Source of the DNA: Clostridia bacterium
Lineage (GTDB): Bacteria > Bacillota_E > SLMV01 > PUMD01
Direction of reading: 5' to 3'
DNA: 7,286 nucleotides
Assembly (NCBI GenBank): GCA_007128555.1
Contig: SKXF01000075.1
Coordinates: 1 to 7,286, forward strand
The position numbers were made by a program, and so were the translations under genes. The stretch's first letter is position 1. Each line of letters opens with the position of its first letter. Under the pieces are notes generated by a model, which was not told the DNA's origin, did no database searches, and saw only the letters and a program-made list of their open reading frames with translations. Below are positions 2,026-4,412 of the stretch, piece after piece.

Positions 2026-3021
2026 TCAACCCAGGTTCTTCAGTCGATCCTCGAGACTGACGATCTCCGTGATGCGCACGGCGAAGTCCTCGTCCACCAC
2101 GACGACCTCACCCCGGGCGACCAGCTTGCCGTTGACCAGGATATCGACGGGATCCCCCGCCTGCTTCTCCAGCTCGAGCACCGCTCCGGTACCCAGCTGC
2201 AGGATGTCCCGGATCTGGCAGACCGTCCGTCCCAGTTCAACGCTGACCTGCAGGGGGACGTCGAGAAGCATGTCGATCCTATGGTCAGCCCCTCCCTGCG
2301 GCCCTGGAGACAGGCTGGCGAACTCGGCCCGGTCGACCCGGGTCTTTCGCTCCGGGGCCGGGGCGGACCGTCGCGGTGTCGTCCTCTCGACGGGATCAGG
2401 CACCGGGACCCGGGCGTCCTGCTCGCGCAACCCGGCCACACCCGGTGATACCAGCAAGTTCACAGCCCACGCCCCGGCATCGGATGCAAACTGCAGGGCC
2501 AGCCAGTACCTCTGGCCGCCGTCCGCCAGTTCCCCCAGCCCGGCCGAGCCAGCGGGGCCCGGGCGAATATCCATCACACCACTCCCCTTCGCCGCAAGCT
2601 GCGACGCCAGGGTATCCGCGAAGCTCTGCATGAAACTCTCCAGCAGCTCGGCGATCAGCGGATCGTCGACCCCCACGTCAAGGAGCCTCGCCATGACCTT
2701 CTCGGAGTTCCCGTCGATGTAGTACTGGCTGCGGGACCGGCTGTCCCCGGTGATCTCCATCTGCCCACACAGTGAGATGTCGTTCCTCCTGATGCCGGAT
2801 GCGTCGATGAGATCGCCCTTCCACTGGTGAAATTCGGCCGGAAGCTCCGTTGCCTGCAGTGCGAGCTCCGCAGCCCGCGCCGCCACGTCGCCGAACGCTC
2901 CGCTGTCATCGGCAGCCTGTGACAGGTCCTGCCCTTCCTCCTCTTGCTCCTCATCTTCGTCTTGGCCCAGGCCCTGGAGCAGGGCATCAATCTCTTCCTG
3001 GGTCAGAATCTCATTGGACAT
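2026..3021 (-). CDS. fliY: FliN/FliY-type switch protein with CheY-binding motif
   Basis: This C-ring protein has 331 residues, far longer than plain FliN (about 100-140) and close to FliY of Gram-positives and thermotogae. Four parts are visible. Residues 3-19 carry the CheY-P-binding peptide NEILTQEEIDALLQGLG. An acidic linker follows (20-45). A middle domain (about 65-195) resembles one CheC/CheX-type unit: in the key helix LIAELLESFMQSFADTL, Glu128 and Pro154 fit E-x2-N-x22-P exactly, but the Asn position is Met131, and the Asp/Ser position is Ala124. A Pro/Arg/Gly-rich linker (196-247) leads to a canonical FliN SpoA domain (248-331: IDMLLDVPLQVSVELGRT, then DILQLGTGAVLELEK and VVVVDEDFAVRITEI). 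The FliN domain should form the base of the C-ring and bind FliH. The start has a strong Shine-Dalgarno. FliN is the safe family call; FliY is preferred on architecture. Confidence 0.9.
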   Translation of the reverse strand: MSNEILTQEEIDALLQGLGQDEDEEQEEEGQDLSQAADDSGAFGDVAARAAELALQATELPAEFHQWKGDLIDASGIRRNDISLCGQMEITGDSRSRSQYYIDGNSEKVMARLLDVGVDDPLIAELLESFMQSFADTLASQLAAKGSGVMDIRPGPAGSAGLGELADGGQRYWLALQFASDAGAWAVNLLVSPGVAGLREQDARVPVPDPVERTTPRRSAPAPERKTRVDRAEFASLSPGPQGGADHRIDMLLDVPLQVSVELGRTVCQIRDILQLGTGAVLELEKQAGDPVDILVNGKLVARGEVVVVDEDFAVRITEIVSLEDRLKNLG

Positions 3022-3025
3022 TCGA

Positions 3026-3964
3026 CTACTCCTCCCCGGACTCTGACATCACCTGGACAGACATGCGCCTGCCCACGCGACCCACGCGACCCGAAAAAAC
3101 CGTCTTGTCCGCCACGCGAACGTCGATCGGTTGATCGACCTTTCCGTCGAGACGGATGATGTCTCCCTCTTCCAGTTCCAACAGGTCCCGGACCGTCACC
3201 CGTCCGTGTCCCAGGTACGCGACGACGGGAAGGGCCACCCCCTCCAGGTGCCCCTCGAGCATCGATCGGTCGACGCCGACCCGGTCCCCGGCGTTGCCAG
3301 GGTGACTCCGCCCCATCCAGTGCTGCACGGACAGTTCCGGCAGCACCGGCTCCAGCATGATGCACGGCCATGCGATGTTGATCCTTCCCTGGTGCTTGCC
3401 CATCTCAACGAGGAACCCGGCGGTCATCATCATCTCGCTGGGCGGCGCAAACTGGGTGAAAAAGGGGCTCGTCTCGATGGAACTCAGACGGGCCTCCAGC
3501 TTCCGGACGCCCCGCCAGTCCTCCTCGATCCCGGCAAGGATCCTCTCGAAGACGGTCTGGATCACGGCCGCCTCGATGTCCGTCAACGGTCTCTGCACGA
3601 CCTCCGTTTCCTGGGGACTGCCCAGGAGACGCTCCACGAGCGGATAGGAAATGCTCGGACACACTTCAATGCCCACGGTCCCTTCCAGGGGACTGAAACT
3701 GGCAATTCCCAGCACCACCGGATCATTCAGCTGTTCAATGAACTCCTCGTAGCTCACCTGGTCGAGCGCGATGAGGGAACACTTGACCGCCATGCGGACC
3801 TGGGCGGACAGCCCCGTGGCCATGAGTCGAGCCATGTTATCGTGAAGAATCCGCAGCGCCCCCAGGTTCTCCCGGGAGAACTTGTCCGGTCGGTGAAAAT
3901 CGTAGCGACGTACACGATGTTGTCCTGCGCTGTTCTTGATCCCAAACTGTTTCACTTGCGCCAT
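3026..3964 (-). CDS. fliM: Flagellar motor switch protein FliM lacking the CheY-binding peptide
   Basis: FliM is the middle layer of the cytoplasmic C-ring, linking FliG to FliN and normally receiving CheY-P. This protein has 312 residues, against about 330 usually. The family core is clear: YDFHRPDKFSRENLGALRIL (21-40), LSAQVRMAVKCSLIALDQVSYEEF (52-75), PLEGTVGIEV, PLVERLLG, the helix after LTDIEA, FFTQFAPPSEMMM (168-180), MLEPVLPELSVQHWMG, and a C-terminal SpoA domain (about 232-306, LLELEEGDIIRLDGKVDQPI). Two features are odd. The N-terminus (MAQVKQFGIKNSAGQHRVRR) has no EIDALL motif, and upstream sequence in the frame cannot supply it. The GGxG loop that contacts FliG, expected after ERLLG, reads GSPQ (115-118). 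The motif missing here is present on the next gene. The stop lies 4 bases before that gene. A second, conventional fliM elsewhere in the genome cannot be excluded. Confidence 0.93.
   Translation of the reverse strand: MAQVKQFGIKNSAGQHRVRRYDFHRPDKFSRENLGALRILHDNMARLMATGLSAQVRMAVKCSLIALDQVSYEEFIEQLNDPVVLGIASFSPLEGTVGIEVCPSISYPLVERLLGSPQETEVVQRPLTDIEAAVIQTVFERILAGIEEDWRGVRKLEARLSSIETSPFFTQFAPPSEMMMTAGFLVEMGKHQGRINIAWPCIMLEPVLPELSVQHWMGRSHPGNAGDRVGVDRSMLEGHLEGVALPVVAYLGHGRVTVRDLLELEEGDIIRLDGKVDQPIDVRVADKTVFSGRVGRVGRRMSVQVMSESGEE
3029..3037 (-). promoter_or_regulatory. Shine-Dalgarno site of the fliN/fliY gene
   Basis: The minus strand reads GGGGAGGAG, 7 bases before the ATG at 3021. It is embedded in the last codons of fliM (Glu-Glu). 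This supports the start that places the EIDALL peptide at the extreme N-terminus of the fliN/fliY product. Confidence 0.8.
3072..3089 (-). repeat. Perfect 9-base tandem duplication in fliM 3' end
   Basis: The plus strand reads CCCACGCGA twice in succession. In fliM this encodes the repeated Gly-Arg-Val-Gly-Arg-Val-Gly-Arg stretch (residues about 292-299), in the SpoA-domain loop that usually carries a single glycine-rich turn. It is in frame and probably a small slippage duplication. Confidence 0.6.
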
Positions 3965-3970
3965 GATCTT

Positions 3971-3977
3971 TCCCCCT
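3971..3977 (-). promoter_or_regulatory. Shine-Dalgarno site that sets the fliM start
   Basis: The minus strand reads AGGGGGA, 6 bases before the ATG at 3964. Upstream in the same frame there are only about 14 sense codons (reading ASSSTEVEGAGGKI) before a TGA at 4009-4007, with no EIDALL sequence. The short FliM N-terminus is therefore real and not a start-calling error. Confidence 0.75.
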
Positions 3978-3989
3978 GCCCCCTCAACC

Positions 3990-4412
3990 TCAGTGGACGA
4001 TGATGCTCAGCAAGAACACATCCGTCAGTTCAGCGTCATCGAGAATCTCGTTGGTTCGACGAATGATCGAACTCCGCAGCCTGTCCATTCCCTCCTCGCC
4101 CTTGAGACTCTCCGCTTCCAGCGATCGGAACACGGTCAGCAACTCGTTTCGGATCACGACCCAGTTCTCCTCAACGACGCTCAGCGTATCGGCATCCCGG
4201 CACTCCAGCTGCAGGTCCACCTGGACCCAGTTTCGCCGTCCATCCGGACCGACGGCCAGGTCCGTGGTGATCGATTCCACGTTGTAGATGGGTCGGTTGG
4301 GCAACGGCTGCTCCGCGGCCTCCTCCTCCGGCGCCCTCATCCACCCGTGGACGCCGTAGGCCCCACCGAGCAGGACCATCACCATAACAGCGACAAGTGT
4401 CCGGCGGCTCAT
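3990..4412 (-). CDS. fliL: Flagellar basal body-associated protein FliL
   Basis: FliL is a single-pass inner-membrane protein that, in other bacteria, encircles or supports the stator units and raises torque. The sequence has 140 residues, typical for the family. A basic MSRR start leads into a membrane segment at about 5-24, an acidic/proline linker (APEEEAAEQPLPNRP), and a periplasmic domain. That domain carries the expected pattern: strands at about 62-70, then VVIRNELLTVF, LKGEEGMDRLRSSI, RRTNEIL, and a final strand (DVFLLSIIVH). The ending departs from the commoner FxxFVVQ form, though the hydrophobic alternation is kept. The ATG overlaps the motB TGA in an ATGA arrangement, so translation is probably coupled. 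Position between motB and fliM matches FliL in spirochaete and clostridial operons. A second cysteine-containing strand (LQLECRD) has no assigned role. Confidence 0.92.
   Translation of the reverse strand: MSRRTLVAVMVMVLLGGAYGVHGWMRAPEEEAAEQPLPNRPIYNVESITTDLAVGPDGRRNWVQVDLQLECRDADTLSVVEENWVVIRNELLTVFRSLEAESLKGEEGMDRLRSSIIRRTNEILDDAELTDVFLLSIIVH

Follow-up and report, generated by a model that had tools for sequence, protein, structure and literature searches.

Described flagellar switches and the locus

In E. coli and Salmonella the switch is assembled from FliM and FliN, and an EIDALL-type peptide on FliM is the port for CheY-P; FliN has none. In Bacillus subtilis FliM also carries the peptide, and its FliY has CheC-type phosphatase activity. 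There FliY replaces FliN and bears a CheY-binding motif at its N-terminus (PMC8809382, in the portion available), and the same portion contrasts Helicobacter pylori FliY with the motif-bearing FliY of B. subtilis. Campylobacter and Helicobacter have FliY as well, with FliN alongside FliM and FliY (available parts of PMC6946799 and PMC8809382). The FliY of Thermotoga maritima (PDB 4hyn) combines a FliM-middle-like domain with a FliN-like one, according to the accessible text of a review (PMC7355467); by the same text, whether docked CheY-P goes on to act on FliM or on FliN varies with the model species. According to the accessible part of a 2022 paper (PMC9126983), every motile bacterium has EIDALL in both FliM and FliY.

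The window, by which is meant the whole stretch of 7,286 nucleotides analysed here, carries on its minus strand flgE (partial), flbD, motA, motB, fliL, fliM, a fliY/fliN-type gene and fliO, in that order; fliP, fliQ and fliR after fliO were named by eye from the list of open reading frames alone. The features of concern are as follows.

3990..4412, minus strand: fliL (PF03748, 2.4e-13), upstream of fliM in the same flagellar gene run
3965..4006, minus strand: 14 in-frame codons 5' of the FliM start, ASSSTEVEGAGGKI, free of the motif, with a stop at 4007-4009
3026..3964, minus strand: fliM, core plus SPOA domain, without an N-terminal CheY-binding peptide (PF02154, 5.5e-51, residues 21-210; PF01052, 1.8e-19; TIGR01397 above its cut-off)
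3905..3964, minus strand: FliM residues 1-20, MAQVKQFGIKNSAGQHRVRR, an N-terminal extension that varies within the clade by pairwise identity
2026..3021, minus strand: fliY/fliN-type gene, encoding peptide, linker, a degenerate domain predicted to be CheC/CheX/FliM-middle-like, and a SPOA domain (PF01052, 1.6e-25 at 251-321; TIGR02480, fliN; structural model and fold search)
2977..3006, minus strand: LTQEEIDALL, candidate CheY-P docking peptide, FliY residues 6-15 (27.2 bits; invariant positions; helix 8-16 in the model)
2449..2904, minus strand: FliY middle domain, residues 40-191, predicted CheX/CheC/FliM-middle-like fold without [DS]xxxExxN (Foldseek; signature search)
2059..2271, minus strand: FliY SPOA (FliN) domain, residues 251-321 (PF01052)

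The FliM core and the SPOA domains are held in common with the E. coli/Salmonella switch, with the placement of the peptide reversed: on FliY, and absent from FliM. FliY stands in for FliN as it does in B. subtilis; unlike the B. subtilis switch, FliM here is without the peptide and FliY without the catalytic signature. The domain plan resembles that of T. maritima FliY, also recovered by the Foldseek search, but the middle domain is very divergent here and gives no Pfam CheC match. In the available portions of the open-licence literature no published case of FliM without the peptide beside FliN/Y with it was found.

FliM without the peptide

FliM starts 20 residues ahead of its YDF core and has both the middle domain and the SPOA domain by profile match, with no EIDALL peptide at its N-terminus. 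The initial annotation had said as much, adding that some 14 in-frame codons separate this start from a stop and contain no peptide either; its coordinates and its reading of both stretches were correct. Across three frames of the stretch 4420-3700, no EIDALL-like decamer occurs upstream of FliM, the best score being 2.0 bits, compared with 27.2 bits for LTQEEIDALL at 3006 (minus strand), 8.4 for the next best decamer in the six frames of the window and a maximum of 13.4 in shuffled windows (three frames, 200 shuffles). The scoring matrix was built from 23 distinct decamers, which a pattern selected among P0019-P0041 and P0064-P0167; one protein in this range, P0065, is a FliY of the clade.

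Relatives agree. When N-termini were aligned, as the initial annotation had proposed, the peptide was found in 0 of 18 clade FliM sequences (P0001-P0018, at about 50% identity or more, P0001 being the window's own) and in 17 of 17 clade FliY sequences among the matches listed, the window's included; the next tier of FliM, from P0019 on, mostly has it. Because of this double agreement a slip in the start site can be dismissed: absence of the peptide from FliM, and its presence on FliY, is a trait of the clade. A wrong start or a frameshift is likewise ruled out by the three-frame scan together with the 18 homologues. The FliM extension is poorly conserved (mean pairwise identity among the 18 sequences 0.35, vs 0.67 for the middle domain), and residues 1-21 have pLDDT under 50 in the predicted structure.

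The initial annotation had also called for a hunt for a second fliM bearing EIDALL. It was run on family f1, a set of eight incomplete genomes of relatives to which the window's own assembly does not belong, and gave at most one FliM per genome. PF02154 has a single match in seven of the eight and none in G005; PF01052 has two matches in seven and one in the fragmented G001, one of the two in G005 being a short piece at a contig end, below the cut-off. No second FliM, and no third SPOA protein that might be a second FliN, was seen in these eight incomplete genomes.

FliY: a constrained peptide and a degenerate middle domain

The FliY/FliN-type protein begins MSNEILTQEEIDALLQGL, so that the annotated EIDALL peptide on the neighbouring gene is indeed there. 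Homologues came from a search in which the 7997 candidates sharing most words were scored and the best 120 of 4835 listed; P0050, an entry additional to the 17 clade sequences, is a C-terminal fragment of the window FliY. Over 18 rows (the 17 plus P0069) positions I5, L6, Q8, E10, I11, D12, A13, L14, L15 and G17 are invariant. Among the 17, residues 1-18 have a mean pairwise identity of 0.87 and SPOA one of 0.76, compared with 0.25 across linker and middle domain, making the peptide the slowest-changing part of the protein. The near relatives P0048, P0049 and P0051 match it at 18, 17 and 17 of 18 positions, with linker and middle matching at 0.83, 0.51 and 0.47; the binomial chance of such a peptide match is 0.035, 1e-4 and 3e-5, respectively. 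Judged by these rates of change, FliY is strongly constrained in its peptide and much less so in the rest.

A structural model of FliY from 18 sequences (mean pLDDT 67, pTM 0.51) places a low-confidence helix at residues 8-16 (block pLDDT about 60); linker and SPOA are poorly predicted and the middle domain confidently. With Foldseek the predicted middle domain finds 1xkr, 1squ, 4hyn and 2hp7 at target-normalised TM-scores of 0.56-0.60, and the structures it would resemble are CheC, CheX, FliM-middle and T. maritima FliY. In the window FliY no Pfam family besides PF01052, CheC included, matches at E<=1, and the first 32 residues, searched against PDB sequences, matched two entries, neither of them related. 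The [DS]xxxExxN motif, which we take to be the CheC-type phosphatase active-site signature, is absent from the window FliY and, among the matches listed, from 16 of 16 other clade FliY; it is present in 95 of the 101 non-clade FliY listed. TIGR02480 scores 103 bits on the protein against a cut-off of 84, identifying a SPOA (FliN) domain, and NF005995, for the full-length FliY phosphatase, scores 150.8 against 218. Since there is no Pfam CheC match and the signature has gone across the clade, the enzyme part of FliY has apparently degenerated, with the docking peptide retained.

Chemotaxis genes in the relatives

Within f1, cheA is found in seven of the eight genomes, CheW in seven and MCPs in five. 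Close cheY orthologs occur in six, at 63-90% identity to the query from G007 (itself one of the six); in G004 the contig stops before the cheY position. The che operon, read from open reading frames and clearest in L064 and L065, runs cheW-cheA-cheY-cheB-cheR-cheX. Here cheB and cheR, and a neighbouring valS, were named by eye; the places of CheA, CheW and CheX agree with family matches, and Pfam confirms the CheY of L066 and the CheX of L064.

The genome nearest the window, G001 (FliM 95% identical over residues 1-170), is another matter. Neither cheA, cheW, an MCP nor a cheY ortholog was detected in it, which at 90% completeness and 7% contamination could mean loss or an assembly gap. The one chemotaxis gene found among those sought is cheX (L068:4810-5316), adjoining a valS-like gene and without the usual cheR upstream. 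Given these absences and the isolated cheX, chemotaxis may have been lost near the window's species or genus.

Distribution in the class and the wider phylum

FliM is found in 128 of 154 genomes of the class, and both proteins were read in all 128 where the contig allowed. FliM peptide scores separate into two sets, and few lie between them. Thresholds were set after the scores were seen: FliM was called positive at >=10 and negative at <=6.5, FliN/Y positive at >=14 and negative at <6.5, and the rest ambiguous; CheA was positive at >=40 bits, so that weak CheA-like matches in family f6 (21-36 bits) counted as none. Of 75 genomes with CheA, 29 (13 families) have both peptides, 10 (six families) the FliM peptide only, 19 (seven families: f1, f4, f16, f17, f23, f32 and f48) the FliN/Y peptide only, and seven (f37 and f45) neither, with 10 unread or ambiguous on one side. 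Such CheA-bearing genomes with a peptide-less FliM stand against the universality stated in the accessible part of PMC9126983. Among the 53 genomes without CheA at 40 bits the FliM peptide is absent from 40, present in 10 and unclear in three; among the 40 without it, FliN is positive in three, negative in eight, unread in three and ambiguous in 26, most of which have a degenerate version of the peptide (LTAEEIQALV in f6). Peptide and CheA are thus only loosely coupled: CheA occurs without either peptide in f37 and f45, and the FliM peptide without CheA in 10 genomes.

Two of these families deserve separate mention. In f37 (L044:2563-3606, L090-L097) CheA is present and EIDALL is absent from the FliM and FliN-type proteins read; the FliN-type protein has an N-terminal region LNDQDLSTYGIVQNLAWGG..., with no Pfam match in L044, the one checked, and this region is possibly another CheY port. 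In f6 (L046, L115, L118-L138, L145, L146) FliM mostly starts MGLVRDxxEVRPYDFQRPHQ or similarly, without the peptide, FliN opens with a degenerate stretch resembling LTAEEIQALV, and the CheA-like matches, mostly weak, lie within very long frames.

Across the phylum a FliM-profile survey matched 251 of 299 genomes. The matches listed are its high-scoring end, and all of them but that of G351 begin at profile positions 1-4, so that this survey is unfit for counting peptide-less FliM. At 21 loci from other classes FliN/Y has the peptide in 20 and FliM in 20, a FliM count that is no estimate, as 19 of the loci (all except those of G204 and G351) came from matches that already covered the peptide region. 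G351 (L219), picked because its FliM match left that region out, has a peptide-less FliM adjoining a FliY with the peptide. With the outside loci pre-selected in this way, we infer rather than observe an ancestral switch that probably bore the peptide on FliM and FliN/Y alike; in support, 13 families of the class have both peptides in cheA-bearing genomes.

How often the change occurred

An rpoBC tree was made for 60 of 146 genomes with a match, f32 being left out. On it f1 groups with f16, and f23 with f48. Family f4 is on its own, and the clade around f17 consists otherwise of members that lack the FliM peptide too. The AU test rejects a single clade of all 15 FliN/Y-only genomes on this tree (p 8e-97), and also f1+f16+f4 (0.017), f1+f16+f17 (8e-9) and f1+f16+f23+f48+f4 (0.005); f1+f16+f23+f48 (0.43) and f4+f17 (0.11) are not rejected. 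These groups were chosen with the data already in view. Because the single clade is rejected, at least two changes are implied by parsimony, and four would be required on the best tree (f1+f16, f23+f48, f4 and the clade with f17).

The FliM tree alone does not reject a single FliN/Y-only clade (p 0.30), so repeated change rests on rpoBC; an independent-pairs test on the FliM tree had two usable pairs and no power. That tree left out G001, G028, G078, G098, G101, G111, G112 and G129 and the copies L053, L143 and L105, its 123 rows being thinned to 87, and the single-clade test also left out L038.

The signal route

The best account of this arrangement, which we think probable, is that CheY-P docks on FliY alone and brings about motor switching from the lower part of the C-ring, the FliY phosphatase having decayed and CheX carrying out dephosphorylation. 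The f1 switch would have a single kind of peptide for docking CheY-P, at the FliY N-terminus; CheY-P made by CheA would be captured at the lower (SPOA) layer of the C-ring by this peptide, carried on its linker; the change would then be relayed through FliM to FliG. FliM would retain its place in the ring and its FliG-facing domain and have lost capture of CheY-P by a peptide, and removal of the phosphate would fall to CheX because of the decay of the FliY phosphatase domain. The two ancestral copies of the peptide would have been partly redundant, and lineages would have dropped one or the other. The initial annotation had proposed that the signal enters the C-ring through FliN/Y. In its favour are relatives in which no second FliM or FliN was found, cheA in most of f1, the constrained FliY peptide, the recurrence of the pattern and the lost phosphatase signature. 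Against it are G001, the nearest genome, where of the chemotaxis genes sought all but CheX went undetected, and the loose coupling of peptide and CheA across the class.

CheY could still make contact elsewhere on FliM. An unlikely version of this has CheY-P acting directly on the FliM middle domain, with the FliY peptide merely concentrating CheY-P locally or recruiting it for turnover; second CheY sites are indeed reported on FliM-middle in T. maritima or on FliN in E. coli (PMC7355467, accessible text), and B. subtilis FliY is named among CheY-P-hydrolysing proteins in the title of a reference cited in the available part of PMC6946799. The clade FliY, however, keeps its peptide with no phosphatase signature (0 of 16), and CheX is encoded in the che operon; loss of the signature makes a role of the peptide in dephosphorylation only less likely. 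The peptide need not be a phospho-specific trigger, since T. maritima FliY shows no preference for activated CheY in the review's accessible text (PMC7355467).

More doubtful still is the supposition that the window's species lost chemotaxis, with the FliM peptide already gone and the FliY peptide a relic or kept for assembly. The gaps in G001 are in keeping with it, and so is the absence of a FliM peptide from 40 of the 53 class genomes without a 40-bit CheA match; yet this peptide is also missing from the six f1 genomes that carry CheA and whose FliM start could be read, so that its loss predates any loss of chemotaxis, and the window and its closest relatives have kept the FliY peptide almost intact. 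That a wrong start codon, a frameshift or a second FliM elsewhere conceals the peptide is very improbable: MAGs are fragmented and the window's own assembly lay outside the genomes searched, but all 18 homologues agree, the upstream frames are empty and no f1 genome has more than one FliM.

A possibly movable docking port

There is also a broader account, on which our judgement is evenly divided: that the docking port is movable, so that from an arrangement with the peptide on both layers lineages came to keep it on FliM only, on FliN/Y only, or on neither (f37, f45), and that in the present clade the FliN/Y layer is the sole place from which rotation is triggered, the phosphatase role having passed to CheX. 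One-layer natural switches of this kind separate the site of docking from the site of action, a question open to peptide-deletion tests.

FliM of the clade differs at another place as well. The GGxG loop, presumably the FliG-facing side of FliM, is found in 0 of 18 clade FliM (P0001-P0018); the window has ERLLGSPQET at about residues 111-120. EHPQT of FliG is kept in all eight f1 genomes. Loss of GGxG is separate from loss of the peptide, since the other FliN/Y-only families, f4, f16, f17, f23, f32 and f48, retain it.
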